Shown: in pieces, positions 39,026 to 53,682 of the stretch | Numbering within the stretch: position 1 is the first letter of the stretch | Layout: every line of letters begins with the position of its first letter | DNA from: Serinicoccus hydrothermalis | GTDB lineage: Bacteria; Actinomycetota; Actinomycetes; Actinomycetales; Dermatophilaceae | Assembly: GCF_001685415.1 (NCBI RefSeq) | Contig: NZ_CP014989.1 | Coordinates: 496,001 to 560,000 of the forward strand | Length of the DNA stretch: 64,000 bases | Direction of reading: 5' to 3' | The notes under the pieces: generated by a model | What the model saw: the letters and a program-made list of their open reading frames with translations, nothing else | What the model was told of the DNA's origin: nothing | Databases searched by the model: none | Program-made: the position numbers and the translations under genes

Positions 39026-39703
39026 GTGGAGACCGCCCGCCGCCTCGTCGAGGACGCCCGGACCCTGCTCGTCGACTTCGACGGGCCCCTCGCCCGGCTC
39101 TTCCCTGGGGCCCGGTGGGCCGAGCTGGGCGACCGGCTGCGGGCGGAGGCACGCAGGCTCGGCGGCTCCGAGCTGGCGCAGCGGCTGGAGGGCGAGGCGG
39201 ACCACGTGCAGTGCCTGAGGCTGGTCGGTGACCACTCGCCCCGGCTGCTGGAGGCCCTGGAGGCCCTCGTCACCGAGCTCGAGCTGGAGGCCGCCGCCCG
39301 GGTGTCCCCCCGGACCGGGGCGGTGGCTCTCGTCGAGCACACCCTGGGTCGAGGTGCCTCCGTCGCCGTGGTCACCAACAACACCCCCGCCGTCGTGGCG
39401 GGCGTGCTGGACCGCGCCCGCCACGGCGTCACCGCGCGCCTGCATGTCGTGGGCCGGTCGGCGGGGCAGGTGGCCGACCTCAAGCCGCGGCCCGACCTCC
39501 TGGTGCGGGCGCTGGGGCTGACCGGATCGCGCCCCGAGGAGTCGGTCTTCCTGGGGGACTCGGTGACCGACGTGCAGGCGGGCCGTGCGGCGGGAATGGC
39601 CGTCGTCGGGGTCGCCGAGGAGGAGGGCCGACGCCACGAGCTGCTCGCCGCCGGCGCGGTGGGTGCGGTGGACGGGGTCGACGCCCTCGTGCCCCCGCGG
39701 TAG
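39026..39703 (+). CDS. HAD-family hydrolase
   Basis: 225 residues. Motif I LLVDFDGPLARL has Asp nucleophile and the second Asp. The helical cap covers about 25-90, motif II is VAVVTNNTPAVV, motif III DLKPRPDLL, and motif IV VFLGDSVTDVQAG. It is a phosphoglycolate phosphatase-like small-molecule phosphatase. Annotated from GTG 39026, which directly follows GCTGG with no strong ribosome site. Substrate unknown. Confidence 0.88.
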   Translation: METARRLVEDARTLLVDFDGPLARLFPGARWAELGDRLRAEARRLGGSELAQRLEGEADHVQCLRLVGDHSPRLLEALEALVTELELEAAARVSPRTGAVALVEHTLGRGASVAVVTNNTPAVVAGVLDRARHGVTARLHVVGRSAGQVADLKPRPDLLVRALGLTGSRPEESVFLGDSVTDVQAGRAAGMAVVGVAEEEGRRHELLAAGAVGAVDGVDALVPPR

Positions 39704-40011
39704 GACGGGCGTTCAGCCGGACGCCACCGCGACGACCACCAGCAGGACCAGCACGGCGACCGGGACCGGGGCGGTCTCGACCCGGTCGAGGAGGAGCATC
39801 GTGCGGCGACGGGCAGGGCCGCGACCACCCCCAGGACCGTCGAGGCCACCCGCAGGCCCAGGGCCAGCACCACCCCCACGAACGGGTGCGGGTTCCTTGC
39901 GGCTCCGACCCTCGGAGGCCCGACGGACCCATTCTGTCACCTGTCTCACCTCCAGCACTCCTCGTCGACACGCTGCTCGCCCCTCCGCAGGAGAAGATCG
40001 CCGGTCACGAC
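39704..40011. other. Intergenic stretch with possible membrane-protein remnant
   Basis: No convincing gene. On the minus strand two hydrophobic segments in adjacent frames (VGVVLALGLRVASTVLGVV, then VPVAVLVLLVVVAVASG ending near 39713) could be a small two-helix membrane protein broken by a frameshift near 39805. The support is weak. Confidence 0.3.
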
Positions 40012-40017
40012 CATAAT
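40012..40017 (+). promoter_or_regulatory. -10 element of a likely leaderless promoter
   Basis: CATAAT matches five of six -10 consensus bases and ends 7 nt before ATG 40025, which suits a leaderless transcript for the ribA-fusion operon. No good -35 is seen at 17 or 18 bp. Confidence 0.5.
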
Positions 40018-40024
40018 GTGGAGG

Positions 40025-41416
40025 ATGGCTGAGCAGGCGAGAACCGCACCGCGGCAGGTCGAACGGGTGGCCGACACCCGGCTCCCGACCGACCACGCGA
40101 CCTTCCGGATGACGGCATACCGCGACGACACGGGGACGGACCACGTCGTCCTCAGCCTCGGGGTCAGCGACGACGACGGCCCGGACCTTCCGCCGCCGCT
40201 CGTGCGCGTGCACTCCGAGTGCCTCACCGGCGACGCGCTGGGGTCGCGGCGCTGCGACTGCGGGGAGCAGCTGCAGCATGCGCTGCAGCTGGTCGCGCGG
40301 ACGGGGCGCGGGGCCGTGGTCTACGCCCGCGGTCACGAGGGGCGGGCGATCGGCCTGGCCGAGAAGCTGCGTGCCTACGCCCTGCAGGACCGCGGCGTCG
40401 ACACCGTCGACGCCAACCTGGCCCTGGGCCACCCCGCCGACGCCCGCACCTACGACCACTGCGCCGCCATGCTGCTCGACCTGGGGATGCGACGCGTCCG
40501 GCTCCTGTCCTCCAACCCGGCCAAGGAGCTGGCATTGAGCGCGCTCGGCATCGAGGTCGTAGAGCGCGTGCCGCTGGTCGTGCCGGACCGGGAGGAGAAT
40601 GCCTTCTACCTCGCCACCAAGCGCGCCCGCATGGGCCACGACGAGGCCGACCAGGACGAGTGGGACCAGCTGCTGGCCGGGCGCATCCCGGCGGCTGGTG
40701 AGCTGGCCCAGCGCTACGGCGACCTGAACCGTGCGGACGGGCCGCGCGTGCTGGCCCAGCTCGGGCAGAGCCTGGACGGCTTCATCGCGAGCCGGACCGG
40801 CGACGCGGCCTTCGTCACCGGTGAGCTCGACCGTGAGCACCTGCACCGCCTGCGGGCGCTGGTGGACGCCGTGGTCGTCGGCGGGGCGACGGTGGCCTGC
40901 GACGACCCGCAGCTGACCGTCCGCGCGGTGGACGGCCCGCACCCGACCCGGGTCGTCCTCGACCCGCGCGGGACCACACCGGCGGACGCCGTGGTGCTCA
41001 CCGACGCCACCTCCCCCACCCTGTGGGTCGTCGGGGCCGACGCCCGGGTCCGTCCGGTCGGCGACCACGTGGAGGTCGTCCGGTGGCCGGACGCGGGCCC
41101 GATGGAGCCCCGCGCCGTCCTCGACCTGCTGGCGGCCCGCGGGCTGCACCGGGTGCTCGTCGAGGGCGGCGGACGGCTGGTGTCGGCCTTCGTCCGGGCC
41201 GAGGCCGTGGACCGTCTCTACCTCACGACCGCGCCGGTGCTCATCGGCGACGGGGTGCCCGGGCTGCGGGTCGACGGTCAGGACCGGCTCACCGACGCCC
41301 TGCGTCCTACCGCCCGCCGCTACCGCCTCGGCGACGACGTCGTCACCGAGCTGGACCTGCGGCCGCTCACCGCCACGGCGCCGACCCTCGCCGACGACGT
41401 GCAGGACGCCAGCTGA
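40025..41416 (+). CDS. GTP cyclohydrolase II fused to a RibD-type reductase domain
   Basis: 463 residues. Residues about 15-205 are GTP cyclohydrolase II. The zinc cysteines are in VHSECLTGDALGSRRCDCGE, the catalytic segment is VYARGHEGRAIGLAEKLRAY, and LLSSNPAKELALSALGIEVV follows. Residues about 240-450 form a RibD C-terminal (dihydrofolate-reductase fold) domain: RVLAQLGQSLDGFIASRTGD, DAVVVGGATVACDDPQLTVR and HRVLVEGGGRLVSAFVRAEA. The fusion would open GTP to the diaminopyrimidine ribotide and reduce its ribose, two non-consecutive riboflavin steps that need a deaminase in most bacteria. The start MAEQ at 40025 is chosen from the -10 at 40012; ATG 40016 is possible. It leads a seven-gene operon with a pterin-synthase homologue, so general riboflavin synthesis is not the obvious role. 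Confidence 0.85.
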   Translation: MAEQARTAPRQVERVADTRLPTDHATFRMTAYRDDTGTDHVVLSLGVSDDDGPDLPPPLVRVHSECLTGDALGSRRCDCGEQLQHALQLVARTGRGAVVYARGHEGRAIGLAEKLRAYALQDRGVDTVDANLALGHPADARTYDHCAAMLLDLGMRRVRLLSSNPAKELALSALGIEVVERVPLVVPDREENAFYLATKRARMGHDEADQDEWDQLLAGRIPAAGELAQRYGDLNRADGPRVLAQLGQSLDGFIASRTGDAAFVTGELDREHLHRLRALVDAVVVGGATVACDDPQLTVRAVDGPHPTRVVLDPRGTTPADAVVLTDATSPTLWVVGADARVRPVGDHVEVVRWPDAGPMEPRAVLDLLAARGLHRVLVEGGGRLVSAFVRAEAVDRLYLTTAPVLIGDGVPGLRVDGQDRLTDALRPTARRYRLGDDVVTELDLRPLTATAPTLADDVQDAS

Positions 41417-41438
41417 TGGCGGCGCCGTCGAGGACCCC

Positions 41439-42170
41439 ATGACACCGACGCGCACCGTCGGTCCGCTTGACGCACGGCGCGGATCCACGGGTGGGGTCGA
41501 GTCCGCGGTCGTGCTGCTGCCGATCGGGGTGTGCATCGGCCTCCTCGCCCTCGTCTGGCCCTCGCCCGGCGTCACCACCCTCGCGCTCGCAGCGGGCCTC
41601 CTCGTGCCGGGCGTGGCGACCGCGGCCCTGCTCCGCCGACGCCCGCGTCCGGTCACCGCGGCGGATGTGGTCACCCTCGGACGGGTGGCGCTGACGGGGG
41701 TCGTCGCCACGGCGACCGTGCTCGTCCTGGCCGGGGAGCTCCCCGGCCGCGGCTGGGCCCTGGCGGCCGCGGTCGGGCTGGCCCTGGCGCTCGACGCCGC
41801 CGACGGGTACGTCGCCCGTCGGACCGGGACCGCGAGTGAGGCAGGGGCACGGTTGGACATGGAGTCCGACGCCGCGCTGCTGCTGGTGCTGTCCGTGCTC
41901 GCCGGCCCGACGCTCGGGTGGTGGGTGATCGCGATCGGGGCGATGCGCTATCTCTTCGTCCTCGCGTCGTGGGTCCGGCCGGCGCTGCGCGGGCCGCTCG
42001 CGCCGCGAGGGTGGCGCCGGGTCGTCGCGGCGCTGCAGGGGATCGCCCTCGTCACCGTCCTCGTGCCGGTCGTGCCGGTCGCCCTGGCCGGCACCGCCTG
42101 CGTGGTCGCGCTCCTGCTCCTGGCCGGCTCCTTCACGCGGGACGTCGTGGACCTGGAGACACGAGCGTGA
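41439..42170 (+). CDS. CDP-alcohol phosphatidyltransferase-family membrane protein
   Basis: 243 residues with about six hydrophobic segments. The family motif D-x2-DG-x2-AR-x8-G-x3-D-x3-D is complete around DAADGYVARRTGTAS and GARLDMESDAAL (about 126-150), and VVTLGRVALTG precedes it. These enzymes transfer a phospho-alcohol from a CDP-activated donor to an acceptor alcohol in the membrane. The gene starts 22 bp after the ribA fusion with GAGG upstream. Its stop overlaps the next start (GTGA). In this operon it may attach the product to a lipid or inositol-like alcohol (inference). Confidence 0.85.
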   Translation: MTPTRTVGPLDARRGSTGGVESAVVLLPIGVCIGLLALVWPSPGVTTLALAAGLLVPGVATAALLRRRPRPVTAADVVTLGRVALTGVVATATVLVLAGELPGRGWALAAAVGLALALDAADGYVARRTGTASEAGARLDMESDAALLLVLSVLAGPTLGWWVIAIGAMRYLFVLASWVRPALRGPLAPRGWRRVVAALQGIALVTVLVPVVPVALAGTACVVALLLLAGSFTRDVVDLETRA

Positions 42171-43174
42171 GCACCGCAGCCCCCGGGACGGCGCAGGCAT
42201 ACTGGGCCACCGCGCCGGGCGAGGGCGAGGTGCGCACCGAGCCGCTGCGCGCCCCGGGACCCGACGAGGCGCTCGTGCGGGCGCTGGTCAGTGGCATCAG
42301 CCGCGGGACCGAGCTGCTCGTCCGTCGCGGCGGGGTGCCGCCCTCCCAGGCGAGGAGGATGCGCGCGCCGTTCCAGACGGGCGACTTCCCCTTCCCGGTG
42401 AAGTACGGCTACCTGTCGGTCGGCGTCGTCGAGCAGGGCCCCCACGACTGGACCGGGGCCCGCGTCTTCTGCCTGCACCCGCACCAGGACCGGTATGTCG
42501 TGCCCGTCACCGCGCTGACCCGGGTCCCGGATGCCGTCCCCACCGCCCGCGCCGTGCTGACCGGCCCGGTCGAGACCGCGCTCAACGCCCTGTGGGACGC
42601 ACCGCCGTGTGCGGGCGACCGGGTGGCGGTCGTCGGGGGCGGGCTCATCGGCGGCGCCCTCGCGCTGCTGCTGCGGCGGTTCCCGCTGTCGCGGCTGCAG
42701 GTGGTCGAGGCCGACCCCGATCGACGCGACCGCCTCGTCGCCGCCGGTCTCGACGCCGTGGACCCCGACGTGGCCCAGGGCGACTGCGACCTGGTCCTCC
42801 ACGCCTCGACGACGGCACCTGGCCTGGCGCTCGCCCTGCGGCTGGCCGGCGACGACGCCCAGGTGGTCGAGCTGTCCTGGTTCGGCTCGGCGGCACCGCA
42901 GGTGCCGCTCGGCGAGGACTTCCACTCCCGTCGCCTCACCCTCGTCGGGAGCCAGGTCGGACGGGTGGGCGCCGCCCGGCGACACCGCCGCGACCCGGCG
43001 GAGCGGCTGCGGGTCACCCTGGACCTGCTCGCCGACCCCGCCTTCGACCTGCTCCTCGGCGCGCAGCGCCCGTTCACGGGCGTCGTGGCCGCCGTCGAGG
43101 AGCTGGCTCGACGGCCCGACCTCACCGGGTGCGTCGTGCTGACCTACCCCGAGCCGGGCGACCCCCGGCCCTGA
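42167..43174 (+). CDS. Medium-chain dehydrogenase/reductase lacking zinc ligands (BchC-like)
   Basis: 335 residues. The GroES-like half contains VSGISRGTELLVRRG and FPVKYGYLSVGVVE, where zinc-type enzymes have a Cys and a GHE motif; both are absent. The Rossmann half starts VAVVGGGLIGGALALLL and VVEADPDRRDRLVAAG. SGISRGTE and KYGY are typical of the BchC/zinc-free alcohol dehydrogenase branch. It would oxidise or reduce a hydroxyl or keto side chain with NAD(P). Coupled by GTGA to the preceding gene. Confidence 0.82.
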   Translation: MSTAAPGTAQAYWATAPGEGEVRTEPLRAPGPDEALVRALVSGISRGTELLVRRGGVPPSQARRMRAPFQTGDFPFPVKYGYLSVGVVEQGPHDWTGARVFCLHPHQDRYVVPVTALTRVPDAVPTARAVLTGPVETALNALWDAPPCAGDRVAVVGGGLIGGALALLLRRFPLSRLQVVEADPDRRDRLVAAGLDAVDPDVAQGDCDLVLHASTTAPGLALALRLAGDDAQVVELSWFGSAAPQVPLGEDFHSRRLTLVGSQVGRVGAARRHRRDPAERLRVTLDLLADPAFDLLLGAQRPFTGVVAAVEELARRPDLTGCVVLTYPEPGDPRP

Positions 43175-43190
43175 CCCTCGAAGGAGCACG

Positions 43191-43583
43191 ATGTTCGGAC
43201 TCACCGTCACCGATCACGTCATGGTGGCGCACAGCCTGCCCGACCCGTTCTTCGGCCCGGCCCAGGGTCTGCACGGGGCGACGCTGGTGGTCGAGGCCAC
43301 CTGGCGGCGGCGCGAGCTCGACGCGCACGGCGTCGTCGTCGACATCGGGGCCGCGTCGCAGGCCCTGTCAGAGGTGCTGGACCCGCTGCGCTACGCCAAC
43401 CTCGACGAGCATCCCGACTTCGCGGGCCGGTTGAGCACCACCGAGGCGGTGGCCGCGCACGTGGCCCACGCCCTGGCCGAGCGGGTCCGGGCCGACCCGG
43501 ACGCCGACCTCGACGGCCTCGGCGTCGTCGTGCGGGAGCACCCCGGGGCGTGGGTGACCTATGACCTGGACCTGCGAGCGTGA
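43191..43583 (+). CDS. Divergent 6-pyruvoyl/6-carboxy-tetrahydropterin synthase homologue
   Basis: 130 residues of the QueD/PTPS fold. The first zinc His is in VMVAHSLPDPFFG. The usual HGH reads LHGATLVVEA, so the third zinc ligand is Ala, and the catalytic Cys four residues before HGH is missing. The rest of the framework is kept: RYANLDEHPDF, STTEAVAAHVAHAL (the PTxE element) and VREHPGAWVTYDL with the pterin-anchoring Glu. AAGGAG lies 4 nt before ATG 43191. Missing ligands mean it may act on a different substrate or bind pterin without the standard reaction. Next to GTP cyclohydrolase II, not I, which is odd for a PTPS. Confidence 0.82.
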   Translation: MFGLTVTDHVMVAHSLPDPFFGPAQGLHGATLVVEATWRRRELDAHGVVVDIGAASQALSEVLDPLRYANLDEHPDFAGRLSTTEAVAAHVAHALAERVRADPDADLDGLGVVVREHPGAWVTYDLDLRA

Positions 43584-44631
43584 CCGTGGCCGGTCGCCCG
43601 CCCTGGTCGTCCCGGCCGACCTGGCGGGCCCCAGCGGGGGCACCCGCTACGACGAGCGCATGATCACCGAGCTGGCCGAGACCGGTCTCGACGTCACCGC
43701 CGAGCCGGTGCCCGGCGCCTGGCCGTCCCCCACGGAGGACGACCGCGCGGCCCTGCGGCACGCGCTCGGGCGGCACGACGAGGTGCTCGTCGACGGCCTG
43801 ATCGGCTCGGCCGCACCGGAGGAGATCGAGCAGGCGCGGGCGCGGGGTGCGCGGGTCGGGGTGCTCGTGCACCTGCCGTTGCCCGCCGAGGGCGGTCTCG
43901 ACGAGCGGGAGCGGGCACGCCTCGCCGCCCTCGAACGGCGGGCCCTGCACGCGGCGGGCACGGTGGTCGCGACCAGCGGCTGGGCCGACGCCGACCTGCG
44001 GGAGCGCTACGGCCTCACCCATGTCCACGCGGTCGCCCCCGGCACGGACCGGGCCGAGACCGCGACCGGCAGCACGCCACCGCACCTGCTGGCCCTGGGC
44101 TCGATCACCCCGCGCAAGAACCCGCTCGGCCTGCTGGAGGCGCTCGGCGGGCTGCAGGACCGCCACTGGAACTTGTCGCTGGTCGGACCACGAGGGTCCG
44201 ACGAGGGGTATGTCCGTGCCGTGACCGCGCGGGCGGAGGCCCTGCAGGGTCGGGTCCGGATGCCGGGGAGCCTCGAGGGCGACGCGCTCGAGGCGCTGTG
44301 GCGCACCGTCGACCTGCTCGTCCTGCCCTCCCAGACCGAGACCTACGGGATGGTCGTCACCGAGGCGCTGGCGCACGGCATACCAGCTCTGGTGCCTTCC
44401 GGGACCGGCGCCGTCGAGGCGCTGCACGGCTCGGGCGAGCGGGACGGCCTGCCCGGGGCCGGGGCGGTCGTGGCGGGGACGCGCGAGGAAGGATGGGCGG
44501 AGGCCCTGCGGGGTTGGCTCGACGACCCCGGGCTGCGGGACCGGTGGCGCCGTGCCGCCGCCGGGCACCGGGACCGGCTCCGCGGGTGGGACACCGCCGC
44601 GGCCGAGCTCCGGGCGGTGCTGCGGTGGTGA
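43561..44631 (+). CDS. GT4-family glycosyltransferase
   Basis: 356 residues, GT-B fold retaining glycosyltransferase. The C-terminal donor domain has HLLALGSITPRKNPLGLLEA, LSLVGPRGSDEGY and the E-x7-E motif in PSQTETYGMVVTEALAHGIP (about 262-281). The N-terminal acceptor domain is Asp/Glu-rich with LVVPADLAGPSGGTRYDERM. ATG 43561 overlaps the pterin-synthase gene by 23 bp. No signal or membrane helix: it glycosylates a cytoplasmic or membrane-face acceptor, presumably the operon's product. Confidence 0.87.
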   Translation: MTWTCERDRGRSPALVVPADLAGPSGGTRYDERMITELAETGLDVTAEPVPGAWPSPTEDDRAALRHALGRHDEVLVDGLIGSAAPEEIEQARARGARVGVLVHLPLPAEGGLDERERARLAALERRALHAAGTVVATSGWADADLRERYGLTHVHAVAPGTDRAETATGSTPPHLLALGSITPRKNPLGLLEALGGLQDRHWNLSLVGPRGSDEGYVRAVTARAEALQGRVRMPGSLEGDALEALWRTVDLLVLPSQTETYGMVVTEALAHGIPALVPSGTGAVEALHGSGERDGLPGAGAVVAGTREEGWAEALRGWLDDPGLRDRWRRAAAGHRDRLRGWDTAAAELRAVLRW

Positions 44632-45464
44632 GCCGCCCTGTGCCCGCCGACTGGCTGGCGCTGCGCCGCGCCGCCGACCACCGGGCCCGGGAGCGCGCCG
44701 CCGGGCTGCTGCGCCGGCTCGGCGACCACGTCGGCGAGCGGACGGGTCAGGAGCTCGTCGTGCTCGACATCGGCGCGGGCACCGGCTCCAACCAGGCCTG
44801 GCTGGCGCCACGGCTCCCGGGGCCGCAGCGCTGGGTCCTGGTCGACCACGACCCCGACCTCCTCGGGCAGGCGGGCGCTGCCGTGCCCGGCGCGGACGTC
44901 ACGACCCGCCGCGCCGTCGCCACGGTGGAGGAGGTCCACTCGCTCGTGCCCTCCGGCGGGGAGGTGCTGGTCACCTGCGCCGCGCTGCTCGACCTGCTCA
45001 CCGTGGCGCAGCTCAACGCGCTCGCCGACGTCATCGCTCCAACGGGCCGACCCGGGGTGGCCGCGCTCCTGAGCCTCACGGTGACCGGCGACGTCGAGAT
45101 CTCCCCGCCCCACCAGGCGGACGCCGCCGTCACGGCGGCCTTCGACGACCACCAGCGCCGTGAGGACCGGCCCGGGCCCAAGGCGACGGAGGCGATGGCC
45201 GCCGCGCTGCGCCGCCGGGGCGCGGACGTCGAGCTGGCCGCGACCGACTGGGAGCTGGACGCCTCGGACGAGTCGCTGGTGCGCCGCTACCTCCAGGACC
45301 GGGCGGCCGTGGCGGTGGAGCAGGACGCCACGCTGGCACCCCTCGCCCGCGAGTGGTTGGCCGCGCGCGAGGGCTCGCTGATGGACGGCTCGCTGCGGGT
45401 CAGGGTCGGCCACCTCGACCTGCTCAGCCTGCCCAGCGAGCCGGGGAGCGGGTCGGGTGGCTGA
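44628..45464 (+). CDS. Class I SAM-dependent methyltransferase
   Basis: 278 residues. SAM motif I VVLDIGAGTGSNQAWLAPRL (about 45-64), acidic end of strand 2 in WVLVDHDPDLLGQA, and motif-IV-like EVLVTCAALLDLLTVAQL. The C-terminal part is family-specific (WELDASDESLVRRYLQDRAA). GTG 44628 overlaps the glycosyltransferase stop. Acceptor unknown. Confidence 0.85.
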   Translation: MSRPVPADWLALRRAADHRARERAAGLLRRLGDHVGERTGQELVVLDIGAGTGSNQAWLAPRLPGPQRWVLVDHDPDLLGQAGAAVPGADVTTRRAVATVEEVHSLVPSGGEVLVTCAALLDLLTVAQLNALADVIAPTGRPGVAALLSLTVTGDVEISPPHQADAAVTAAFDDHQRREDRPGPKATEAMAAALRRRGADVELAATDWELDASDESLVRRYLQDRAAVAVEQDATLAPLAREWLAAREGSLMDGSLRVRVGHLDLLSLPSEPGSGSGG

Positions 45465-46422
45465 GACGGCGGTGGGGCCCCGGCCCAGGGTCGCGTCCTC
45501 CTCGCGAGGTCTGCAGGTGGTGTTGGTCGCCTCGCTGCAGGTGCTCGTCACCGTCGGGGTGCTGGGCTTCGTCGTCGCGCGGTGGGGGCTGGAGCCCATC
45601 ACCACCGCCCTCGGCTCGCTGCCCTGGTGGGCGCTCGCGGGAGGGCTCGTGCTCGGGGCCGCGGGCGTGCTGGTCCAGGCGCTGCGCTGGCGGCTGGTCG
45701 CCCACCACCACGGCATCCGGCTCCCGGTCGGACCCGCCGTCGCCCGCTGCTGGCAGGCGTCCTTCCTCAACAGCCTGCTGCCCGGCGGGCTCGCGGGAGA
45801 CGTCCTGCGGGCCGCGGACGACAGCAGCGACGCCGAGGTGAGCGCTGGTCGCCGGGCTCTGGCCAGCGGCTTCGCGGCCGTGGCCGCCGAGCGCCTGTGC
45901 GGCACGACCGTCGTCCTGGTCGCCGCCTCGGCCGCCCTCGCGCCGCACCGGCCGCTGCTGGCGGCGCTCTGCCTCGCCGGTGGCGTCGTCACGGCTGCCG
46001 TCGCGTGGCGCTGGCTGCGCCGGCTGCCCGCGCGGGACCTGCTCGGTGTCGGGATGCTGTCGGTGGTGGGGTGGGTGGCCTTCGCCGGCATCTTCGCGCT
46101 CGCCCTGGTCGCGGTGGCGCCCTCGACCGACCCGCGGCTCGCGCCGGGTCTCGCCGCCGTCTCGATCGCGGGCATGTCGGTGCCGGTCGGCGTCGGCGGC
46201 TGGGGAACGCGGGAGGCGGCCACCGCCTGGGTCTTCTCGGTCGTCGGGCTCGACCCGGCCGCCGGGGTGGGGGTTTCGGTGGGGTATGGCGTCCTCGCCC
46301 TGGTCTCCACGCTGCCTGGTGCCGTGGTGCTGGCGGCGCGGCTCGCCCCACGGGTGCGGGAGGTAGGTCGCTCCCGCGACCGACGCCATGCCCGGGCCGG
46401 GCGCGAGCACGCCGGCGCGTAG
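45457..46422 (+). CDS. Lysylphosphatidylglycerol synthase/AglD-type (UPF0104) membrane flippase
   Basis: 321 residues, about eight helices. Family landmarks: VQALRWRLVAHHHGIRLP, FLNSLLPGGLAGDVLRAAD (loop with the conserved PGG...GD/DxxR), AAERLCGTTVVL and VPVGVGGWGTREAATAWVFS. Members flip or retain lipid-linked molecules. It overlaps the methyltransferase by 8 bp and ends the operon, which supports a membrane-associated or exported product. Confidence 0.86.
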   Translation: MAETAVGPRPRVASSSRGLQVVLVASLQVLVTVGVLGFVVARWGLEPITTALGSLPWWALAGGLVLGAAGVLVQALRWRLVAHHHGIRLPVGPAVARCWQASFLNSLLPGGLAGDVLRAADDSSDAEVSAGRRALASGFAAVAAERLCGTTVVLVAASAALAPHRPLLAALCLAGGVVTAAVAWRWLRRLPARDLLGVGMLSVVGWVAFAGIFALALVAVAPSTDPRLAPGLAAVSIAGMSVPVGVGGWGTREAATAWVFSVVGLDPAAGVGVSVGYGVLALVSTLPGAVVLAARLAPRVREVGRSRDRRHARAGREHAGA

Positions 46423-53046: not shown

Positions 53047-53682
53047 TCACGCCCCCAACCGCAGCCGCAGCAGCAGATCGCCCTCCCACTCCAGCAGGTG
53101 CGTGGCCCGGCCCAGGAGCTCGGGCAGCCTCACGTCGGCCGGGAGCAGCGAGGGACCCTCCCCGCCGGCGATCACCGGCCGGACGGTGAGGCAGAGCTCG
53201 TCGACGGCCCCCGCCGCGACCCAGGCCCCGAAGAGCGCCGGGCCGCCGTCGACCACCACCCGGTGCAGGCCCCGCTCCCCGACCGCCTCCAGCACCCGCG
53301 CCGGGGTCACCTCGTCGCCGTCGCCGCCGACCACGAGGACGTCGGGGTGGTCGCGCAAGGACTCCGGCACCTTCCCCGAGCGGGTGACGACGACGAGCAG
53401 GCACCCCTCGAGCGGCCCGTAGCCCTCGCTGCGCGCGGTGCCGGCCCCCACCACCACCGCCTGCGCCCAGCGACGCTGCGTCCCGAAGGCGGCGTGGTCC
53501 CCCGCCGAGCCCTCGTTGAGCCCGCCGCTGAGACCGTCCGGTCCGGTGACCCTGCCGTCCAGCGTGGCGATGAAGCTGCCGCGCACCCAGCGGGCACCGG
53601 GATCCGCGTCGTCCGGCACGGCATACCAGTCGTCCAGCTCGCCCTCGGTGAGCGGCCCGCGGGCGAGCTCGAGGGCGGTCAT
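53047..53682 (-). CDS. Stand-alone RibD C-terminal/dihydrofolate reductase-fold protein
   Basis: 211 residues. RGSFIATLDGRVTGPDGLSG near the N-terminus, AVVVGAGTARSEGYGPL, and HRVVVDGGPALFGAWVAAGA with VDELCLTVRPVIAGG. These are the NADPH/substrate elements of RibD-C reductases, with no deaminase domain. GGGAGC precedes ATG 53682. It resembles the reductase half of the fusion at 40025. It may be a paralogous pyrimidine reductase or a general flavin/pterin-type reductase. Confidence 0.83.
   Translation of the reverse strand: MTALELARGPLTEGELDDWYAVPDDADPGARWVRGSFIATLDGRVTGPDGLSGGLNEGSAGDHAAFGTQRRWAQAVVVGAGTARSEGYGPLEGCLLVVVTRSGKVPESLRDHPDVLVVGGDGDEVTPARVLEAVGERGLHRVVVDGGPALFGAWVAAGAVDELCLTVRPVIAGGEGPSLLPADVRLPELLGRATHLLEWEGDLLLRLRLGA

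Follow-up and report, generated by a model that had tools for sequence, protein, structure and literature searches.

Cyanobacteria make their pterin glycosides by a route whose first enzymes are GTP cyclohydrolase I and an active PTPS. To our knowledge, two proteins of Streptomyces coelicolor have remained orphans: one is a T-fold protein, solved by crystallography but assigned no reaction, and the other is a GTP cyclohydrolase II which stops half-way. Spoonamore et al. reportedly showed in 2006 that the GTP cyclohydrolase II SCO6655 goes no further than the formyl compound, FAPy, and from the same work a switch tyrosine is said to be required for full conversion to APy; SCO6655 is presumably a RibA without this tyrosine. 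The locus described here shares with the cyanobacterial systems the idea of a glycosylated GTP-derived heterocycle, but has GTP cyclohydrolase II and a T-fold protein lacking the catalytic motif. Its likeness to the bacterial and archaeal riboflavin pathways (RibA, RibD; ArfA/ArfB; BrbF), as described in PMC9478397, extends to the first one or two reactions and to the logic of the deformylase; according to the same text, the creatininase-family protein BrbF of S. meliloti deformylates FAPy. Unlike these pathways, the locus ends in a glycosyltransferase, a methyltransferase and a CDP-alcohol phosphatidyltransferase (CDP-OH), and Pfam detected no RibB, RibH, RibE or deaminase domain among the proteins of the operon. 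Among the titles and abstract openings found by searching the open-licence PMC literature, none describes this gene set.

The analyzed window is a stretch of 64,000 nucleotides from Serinicoccus hydrothermalis. Open reading frames and Pfam matches located seven genes in positions 40016-46422, all in the + strand, encoding in order a RibA-RibD_C fusion, a CDP-OH enzyme, a zinc-less MDR oxidoreductase, a PTPS-like T-fold protein, a GT4 glycosyltransferase, a class I SAM-dependent methyltransferase and a UPF0104 membrane protein. The successive junctions are a gap of 22 bp, an overlap of 4 bp, a gap of 16 bp, an overlap of 23 bp (shared by the PTPS-like and GT4 genes) and overlaps of 4 and 8 bp. 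This confirmed the seven-gene coupled operon of the original prediction, with two corrections: all six junctions, and not five, are overlaps or gaps shorter than 25 bp, and the initial ATG is located at 40016, four bases further on than the 40012 given earlier. A HAD-superfamily phosphatase gene (39026..39703, + strand, 225 aa; PF00702/PF13419) lies 312 bp upstream of the operon. This gene was overlooked in the earlier reading, as were the solved relative SCO6650 and SCO6655. The dN/dS values of all eight genes were 0.10-0.48 in the relatives compared, demonstrating purifying selection. Scanning for promoters and terminators, which is uninformative for a GC-rich actinobacterium, found no signal, and a sulfatase-like neighbour had neither a significant solved relative nor an NCBIfam match.

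The fusion protein (40016..41416; PF00925 + PF01872, NCBIfam) carries GTP cyclohydrolase II at residues 16-186 and a putative pyrimidine reductase at residues 243-421, with no deaminase domain. Its RibA domain scored 204.7 bits with PF00925 and passed TIGR00505 (221.3 against a cut-off of 205.85); the zinc Cys triad is intact and the switch residue is Tyr121. The RibD_C domain exceeded the cut-off of PF01872 (126 bits) and scored 121.8 with TIGR00227 (cut-off 150.15) and 105.6 with TIGR01508 (cut-off 186.45). Like the UPF0104 protein and the creatininase-family proteins of related loci, it thus stays below the scores which NCBIfam requires in its curated models of particular functions. A canonical riboflavin operon was rejected: the fusion holds only the two domains and its neighbours belong to other families. 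A complete second rib operon is present about 2.5 Mb away (PF00383+PF01872, PF00677, PF00926+PF00925, PF00885), encoding RibD with its deaminase, RibE, RibBA and RibH. Twelve genomes from g31, a genus which we take for Streptomyces, were picked for a cluster without RibD_C and searched, and none of the 12 has a cluster-type RibD_C elsewhere: the best match reached 42 bits, compared with 301 and 470 in two genomes having it. This weakened RibD_C as a candidate obligatory step.

The PTPS-like protein (43191..43583; PF01242) is an apparent orthologue of SCO6650, matching the solved structure of that protein (3d7j) over its length (residues 1-125, E 1.3e-31). We compared 162 sequences, namely the window and loci with at least 130 bits, drawn from 167 loci. 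The anchoring glutamate (Glu116) was kept in 161 of the 162, while neither HGH nor a Cys at residues 20-28 was found in any. The COG0720 PTPS/QueD enzymes belong to the same T-fold family and have the anchoring Glu as well, but are characterized by CxxxHGH, CxxxxxHGH or ExxHGH, as given in PMC5041015. Since HGH occurs in 0/162 sequences, none of these three motifs is present, and the loss of the zinc HGH and the catalytic Cys rules out a canonical PTPS/QueD identity. In the wording "pterin- or pyrimidine-based" the pterin part is not supported as it was put: the pterin-synthase motif is gone from the PTPS homologue, RibA makes a pyrimidine, and a pterin can only be conjectured.

Of the genomes sampled, 45 of 296 from the window's class contain a PTPS-like gene, as do 36 of 289 from Alphaproteobacteria (E below 1e-40). 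Neighbourhoods were taken for 40 of the 45 non-own class matches (G182, G045, G074, G051 and G260 being left out), and a genome scan supplied the best 80 of at least 584 stretches encoding relatives. Presence was counted only where the sequence extended at least 8 kb to both sides of the PTPS gene, which left 34 of 40 loci in the class draw, 28 of 35 in the alphaproteobacterial draw and 64 of 80 in the scan. Neighbour clustering employed 59 of the 80 scan loci (again the best 80 of at least 584), with 21 Arthrobacter-group loci left out. In 24 of the 34 class-draw loci all seven families are represented no more than 8 kb from the PTPS-like gene, and the seven genes occur in four different orders. 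As a control, the family HMMs were applied to 20 further stretches, each of 19.7 kb, from class genomes: nothing scored above threshold in any of the 20, except GT4 in one. Compared with the 24/34 loci, this rules out chance juxtaposition. Parts of the set were also found in Alphaproteobacteria, Bacteroidota and Planctomycetota. For the weaker PTPS matches neighbourhoods were taken from six genomes (L198-L203), and much of the set persists in two distant loci from Bacteroidota (PTPS E 8.5e-17 and 9.5e-14): L199 has the methyltransferase, GT4, PTPS, MDR, RibD_C and RibA together, and L198 has the same genes without GT4. The co-occurrence search by which the original prediction was to be checked thus demonstrated a conserved gene block common to bacteria of several phyla.

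The steadiest core of the block consists of MDR, PTPS and GT4, with the methyltransferase nearly as steady in two of three samples. GT4 was present within 8 kb in 34/34 class-draw, 27/28 alphaproteobacterial-draw and 61/64 scan loci (the last from the best 80 of at least 584 stretches), and it is on this that the predicted glycosylation is based. MDR-PTPS-GT4 alone, with or without a weak HAD match, accounted for 17 of the 64 scan loci (best 80 of at least 584) when the two commonest orders only were counted. RibA was found within 8 kb in 11 of the 28 alphaproteobacterial-draw loci. Of 19 same-genus loci, 10 have a HAD match upstream of RibA-RibD_C (L233-L238, L241, L243, L249, L250), and so do L041, L059 and L120.

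The Streptomyces loci L081 and L094 and 14 g31 loci contain the set together with a creatininase-family gene and resemble the SCO6650-SCO6655 locus of S. coelicolor. They differ from the window in having a stand-alone Met-type RibA and the creatininase-family gene, whereas in the window RibA is of the Tyr type and fused to RibD_C, a HAD gene is present, and Pfam found no creatininase family among the proteins of its operon. RibD_C is present in both L081 and L094 and in two of the 14 g31 loci. Among 61 RibA loci, the creatininase-family gene accompanies 31 of 32 non-Tyr RibA and none of 29 Tyr RibA (Fisher p 1.4e-16, uncorrected for descent). Counting on an MDR tree (75 of 76 RibA loci, the weak match L167 being left out) gave few independent changes, 2 and 5, and one independent pair on supported branches. 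In three alphaproteobacterial loci Tyr and the creatininase-family gene occur together; with so few independent events, a universal rule linking the two was rejected. The creatininase-family protein of L080 scored 199.7 bits with PF02633, and that of L130 scored 32.2 with NCBIfam ArfB (cut-off 180) and 127.1 with MftE (cut-off 172). The co-occurrence of this family with non-Tyr RibA and the described activity of BrbF suggest that such proteins may act as FAPy deformylases.

The MDR protein (42167..43174) is weakly BchC-like, with 34.0 bits for NCBIfam bchC, which is under the cut-off, and had no Pfam match when searched from residue 12. Ser45, conserved in 159 of 162 relatives (the other three having gaps), presumably occupies the place of the Cys in zinc ADHs. 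Residues W238, H253, R256 and Q263 are conserved in 162/162. For GT4 (43561..44631, ATG start by frame check; PF00534) the best solved chains, 3c48/3c4q, which we take to be C. glutamicum MshA, cover query residues 156-352 only. The methyltransferase (44628..45464) scored 30.1 bits with PF13649 and its model (pLDDT 94.6) has a generic methyltransferase fold. A fold search returned generic class I matches, uninformative as to substrate, and searching the solved structures by sequence brought no significant match.

In the CDP-OH enzyme (41439..42170; PF01066) the motif DxxDGxxAR(x8)GxxxDxxxD is complete (D119-D122-G123-A126-R127-G136-D140-D144), each position being at least 90% conserved in 91 sequences. 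Its model (pLDDT 90.8) has PGP synthase PgsA (7drj) as the best solved fold match, at a Foldseek E of only 0.024 (TM 0.72 by target length and 0.56 by query). It shares the CDP-OH motif with PgsA but is 17% identical to it and has a longer N-terminal part. The UPF0104 / LPG_synthase_TM protein (45457..46422), a possible flippase, scored 80.9 with PF03706 (cut-off 33.4) and 32.4 with TIGR00374 (cut-off 43.2). Within 8 kb, CDP-OH was present in 29/34 class-draw versus 10/28 alphaproteobacterial-draw loci, and UPF0104 in 30/34 versus 0/28, though in the scan (best 80 of at least 584 stretches) 4 of the 11 alphaproteobacterial loci do have UPF0104. CDP-OH matches occur in Alphaproteobacteria as well, with weak ones in Planctomycetota and Bacteroidota. 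A membrane link of the product is thus plausible: the intact motif and the PGP synthase fold speak for the "membrane-linked" of the original prediction, and the locus counts show that it is not universal.

On balance, this is probably, though far from certainly, a dedicated biosynthetic operon diverting GTP off the riboflavin route, by way of a diaminopyrimidine ribotide which is then reduced or oxidized, into a glycosylated, methylated and often lipid-anchored product. On family-level evidence, the RibA domain would open GTP to 2,5-diamino-6-ribosylamino-4(3H)-pyrimidinone 5'-phosphate (APy/DARoPP), and the fused RibD_C would reduce the ribosyl to a ribityl group, a step which is not universal; the 2-amino group would stay because no deaminase is present. 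In relatives, RibA without the switch Tyr is expected to stop at FAPy, which the creatininase-family hydrolase of the cluster would deformylate, and therefore both versions of the cluster would reach one intermediate. In the next step the diaminopyrimidine could be converted by the MDR together with the T-fold protein, whose role would have changed and which may grip the 2-aminopyrimidinone edge via Glu116; an N8-ribityl pterin might result, or the product of some other carbonyl condensation. GT4 would add a sugar and the methyltransferase a methyl group. Finally, in Actinomycetota above all, the polyol phosphate may serve as acceptor for the CDP-OH enzyme, which would attach that phosphate to a lipid activated with CDP, much as PGP synthase treats glycerol phosphate; the lipid-linked product may be trimmed by a phosphatase, in the window the HAD protein, and carried across the membrane by UPF0104. 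The original prediction is supported as to a dedicated and conserved gene set which consumes GTP, and in part only as to its chemistry.

The product could instead be soluble: a pterin-like or pyrimidine compound, glycosylated and methylated, which serves as a pigment, UV screen, cofactor or signal. RibA/RibD_C supply, MDR, T-fold protein, GT4 and methyltransferase would then form the core, with CDP-OH and UPF0104 as accessories. We regard this as possible yet rather unlikely. It agrees with the steadiness of MDR, PTPS, GT4 and, nearly, the methyltransferase, and with the alphaproteobacterial draw, where CDP-OH is missing within 8 kb from 18 of 28 loci and UPF0104 from all 28; it accords poorly with the high frequency of both genes in the class draw, with the UPF0104 genes of the alphaproteobacterial scan loci and with the CDP-OH matches in the other phyla. 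The fold of the CDP-OH enzyme and the nearness of GT4 to 3c48/3c4q would also suit an operon for the head group of an ordinary phospholipid or glycolipid, made up of CDP-OH, GT4 and UPF0104 and lying by chance next to unrelated redox genes, but the RibA, MDR and T-fold genes remain with the set in all four arrangements and MDR-PTPS-GT4 is kept at loci without CDP-OH, making this improbable. Slighter still is the chance of an auxiliary riboflavin supply operon, in which the fusion, with its two predicted riboflavin-pathway activities, only boosts the precursor. This reading is rejected because a complete separate rib operon exists; moreover, the later riboflavin enzymes are missing from the operon and the partners elsewhere are MDR, T-fold protein, GT4 and methyltransferase. 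With conserved co-occurrence across phyla and the separate riboflavin operon, the refuting conditions set for the original prediction did not overturn it.

Relatives of both S. coelicolor orphans, the T-fold protein and the half-way GTP cyclohydrolase II, are now placed in one gene set, and therefore the product can be searched for directly in laboratory strains. A half-way RibA may be tolerated owing to the creatininase-family gene beside it. More tentatively, we put forward a multi-phylum route from GTP, via GTP cyclohydrolase II and not I, to a polyol phosphate of the ribityl-pterin or diaminopyrimidine type, glycosylated, methylated and mounted on lipid by a PGP-synthase-like enzyme, in which the T-fold protein might have exchanged its zinc chemistry for a condensation of a new kind. 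Should the membrane reading hold, the product would represent an undescribed class of lipids.

The seven-gene coupled operon of the original prediction was confirmed: all seven genes lie on the plus strand at 40016-46422 with tight junctions (in order, a gap of 22 bp, an overlap of 4 bp, a gap of 16 bp and overlaps of 23, 4 and 8 bp). Pfam matches were GTP_cyclohydro2 and RibD_C for the RibA-RibD_C fusion, CDP-OH_P_transf for the CDP-OH gene, PTPS for the PTPS-like (T-fold) gene, Glycos_transf_1 for GT4, Methyltransf_25 for the methyltransferase and LPG_synthase_TM for UPF0104; the MDR protein, searched from residue 12, had no Pfam match. NCBIfam agreed with this picture, TIGR00505 (GTP cyclohydrolase II) scoring above cut-off for the fusion and the specific models for RibD_C, MDR (BchC), PTPS/QueD and UPF0104 below theirs. 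The GT4 gene starts at ATG 43561, GTG 43580 being out of frame, and a HAD phosphatase gene (39026-39703) is located 312 bp upstream of the operon.

Analysis of loci centred on the PTPS-like gene in other genomes bore out the predicted co-occurrence. Presence was counted within 8 kb of this gene at loci flanked on either side by 8 kb or more: 34 of 40 in the class draw, 28 of 35 in the alphaproteobacterial draw and 64 of 80 in the genome scan, which was limited to the 80 best of 584 or more matching stretches. All seven core families were found together at 24 of the 34 class-draw loci, and of 20 control stretches taken from class genomes, one had a GT4 above the threshold and none had any other core family above it. 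MDR, PTPS and GT4 were present at all 34 loci, UPF0104, methyltransferase and RibA at 30 each, CDP-OH at 29, a creatininase-family gene at 22 and RibD_C at 11. The full set occurred at 16 of 64 loci from the best 80 of the genome scan (MDR 64, GT4 61, CDP-OH 39, methyltransferase 35, UPF0104 29, RibD_C 24, RibA 23) and at none of 28 alphaproteobacterial loci, where four to six of the seven were usual (MDR and PTPS 28, GT4 27, methyltransferase 26, RibD_C 22, RibA 11, CDP-OH 10, FkbM 6, creatininase 5, UPF0104 0). Unsupervised clustering of neighbour proteins at 59 of the 80 genome-scan loci (again the 80 best of 584 or more) gave nine clusters common to most loci, namely this operon's families with MDR split into three; the CDP-OH cluster also took in 12 other proteins, some sulfatase-like.

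The 24 full class-draw loci fell into four arrangements, the dominant one at 16 loci and that of the window at six; a separate tally of 16 gene orders also counts differences in gene content. Since the families stay co-located despite changes of strand and place, this is strong evidence that they share a function. Many Arthrobacter-group loci carry MDR-PTPS-GT4 alone, which counts against completeness of the set. Single loci retained MDR alone (L191), GT4 and methyltransferase alone (L192) or distant GT4 and MDR matches alone (L197), and none of the operon families was found at L200-L203, which came from weaker matches. In Nesterenkonia (L067, L068, L070, L072) MDR-PTPS has several more GT4 genes next to it, as well as a CDP-OH gene of another kind that matches weakly; this may be a variant cluster. 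Reading frames of some cluster genes are split in L237, L249, L250, L251, L048 and L065, reflecting either sequencing errors or decaying copies.

The window PTPS-like protein had matches in 45 of 296 sampled genomes of its class and in 26 of 58 near relatives. With a 30-row alignment as query, 48 of 289 genomes in the class of the Rhodobacter genome matched at E <=0.001 (36 of them at E <1e-40), as did 70 of 246 in the planctomycete genome's phylum (six at E <1e-36) and 27 of 247 in the Saprospiraceae genome's phylum (two at E <1e-43). These counts include the centre genomes (the window's, G308, G309 and G310), and the weaker matches were not accepted as orthologues. In the genome scan, the 80 best-matching stretches (out of 584 or more) represented Actinomycetota, Saprospiraceae, Planctomycetota and Alpha-, Beta- and Gammaproteobacteria.

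Within the genus, eight of 19 loci (L233-L239, L249) keep the window order, ten carry the set, complete or in part, in a different order, and L242 has MDR-PTPS-GT4 alone; a HAD match precedes RibA-RibD_C at ten of the 19. Substitution ratios were below 1 in all eight genes (0.10-0.48; three to five relatives' loci compared). Against L233, the stretch 39026-41416 is highly similar (HAD 97% identical, dS 0.11; RibA-RibD_C 94%, dS 0.19), and CDP-OH to UPF0104 are 62-88% identical with dS 0.59-0.89. This sharp break at the RibD_C/CDP-OH junction looks as it might after recent recombination.

The fusion could be thought merely to supply riboflavin, a reading that was not borne out. The host genome (one contig, 3,597,394 bases) has a second riboflavin operon near 3.01-3.02 Mb, where a 6-kb stretch encodes, by Pfam, RibD (deaminase and RibD_C), RibE (lumazine-binding), RibBA (DHBP synthase and GTP cyclohydrolase II) and RibH. 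The fusion is therefore an extra copy that is unlikely to serve riboflavin supply. The seven-gene operon holds the only PTPS-family gene of this genome. In nine genomes searched with the fusion (those of L035, L036, L037, L042, L044, L046, L056, L067 and L070) a RibA/RibD_C pair was always present on one contig, and five had a further RibA or RibD_C match above 60 bits. A second short RibD_C-like match to the fusion (37.2 bits) lies on the minus strand of the window at 53113-53361.

Spoonamore et al. 2006 reportedly found that SCO6655, a GTP cyclohydrolase II of S. coelicolor, converts GTP to the formyl compound FAPy because Tyr is replaced by Met; the window RibA has Tyr121 here. Among 61 loci with RibA out of 120 examined, 29 Tyr-type loci lacked the creatininase-family gene and none had it; 31 non-Tyr loci had it and one lacked it (Met 20, His 6, Leu 4, Gln 1, Ile 1), the exception being L092, where the contig breaks off within UPF0104. 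With Alphaproteobacteria and further phyla included there were 76 RibA loci among 167: 3 Tyr loci with the gene and 40 without, and 31 non-Tyr loci with it and two without, one of the latter being L167, a weak distant RibA match. On a 75-locus MDR tree, two changes are required for the non-Tyr state and five for the creatininase gene, with one independent pair of changes on supported branches; the association is therefore strong but hardly replicated by descent. BrbF, a creatininase-family protein, deformylates FAPy in S. meliloti, according to PMC9478397, whose main text has no occurrence of 'Streptomyces'. We read the creatininase-family gene as completing the half-reaction where RibA is non-Tyr, and the window, with a RibA of the Tyr type, as having no need of it. 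One cluster protein (L130) scored below cut-off with both NCBIfam ArfB (32.2, cut-off 180, a weak match) and, less far below, MftE (127.1, cut-off 172), so the creatininase-family proteins are putative FAPy deformylases at most.

SCO6650 (3D7J) was the sole significant solved relative of the T-fold protein in a single-sequence search; a profile search matched canonical PTPS and QueD weakly. The 3D7J paper is said to describe a protein that has lost zinc and the catalytic triad and retains a pterin-like pocket. In an alignment of 162 sequences (the window and loci at >=130 bits) the HGH motif never has its second His, which is replaced by Ala, Val or Cys, and Cys is absent from residues 20-28. 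At the position of the catalytic His, 149 sequences have Tyr, 8 have Phe and 3 have His; 161 retain the anchoring Glu, the remaining one having a gap there. None of the three PTPS subfamily motifs defined in PMC5041015 fits the window protein.

The CDP-OH motif is complete in the window and conserved in 91 sequences; the predicted model (pLDDT 90.8) has its closest fold match in PGP synthase 7drj (prob 1.00, E 0.024, TM 0.72 by target length), an enzyme whose acceptor is a phosphorylated polyol. MDR Trp238, His253, Arg256 and Gln263 are invariant in 162 of 162 sequences, and Ser replaces Cys at what we take to be the zinc site of ADH. The methyltransferase model has a generic class I fold, and the C-terminal half of GT4 is nearest to 3c48/3c4q. 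Recurrent neighbours at 167 loci were sulfatase-family proteins (32), FkbM methyltransferase (15) and an inositol-monophosphatase-like protein (4). A sulfatase/alkaline-phosphatase-superfamily-like protein adjoins the CDP-OH gene at L124, L125, L129, L131, L136, L150-L154 and L156; that of L156 had no significant solved relative.

No published description of this gene set was found in the open-access literature searched; two S. coelicolor members of the set are known as orphans. Locus L133, from the genus taken as Streptomyces, has the order PTPS, GT4, methyltransferase, UPF0104, creatininase, RibA, by which SCO6652 would be the methyltransferase. For SCO6652, PMC3610822 gives a rise of 4.3 log2 units at 48 h and of 4.1 at 72 h of the second mycelium. 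SCO6655 is in a list of genes that correlate negatively with predicted flux (PMC2853524), but the list also has SCO2687, a further GTP cyclohydrolase II, so this is not special to SCO6655.

Overall, sequence comparison shows a dedicated conserved gene set, with RibA and CDP-OH motifs intact and the T-fold protein altered, and a Tyr/creatininase split in Actinomycetota. The original interpretation stood in part, its glycosylation, lipid anchoring and flipping remaining putative. The pathway would pass through the diaminopyrimidine ribotide APy and then its ribityl form. In 12 of 12 genomes of the presumed Streptomyces genus tested for it, the cluster had no RibD_C and no cluster-type copy was found elsewhere; therefore, in clusters of this kind, either housekeeping RibD would carry out the reduction or the ribosyl form would be used. 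MDR and the T-fold protein may act in this pathway, a sugar and a methyl group would be added, and the product may be anchored to lipid and then flipped.
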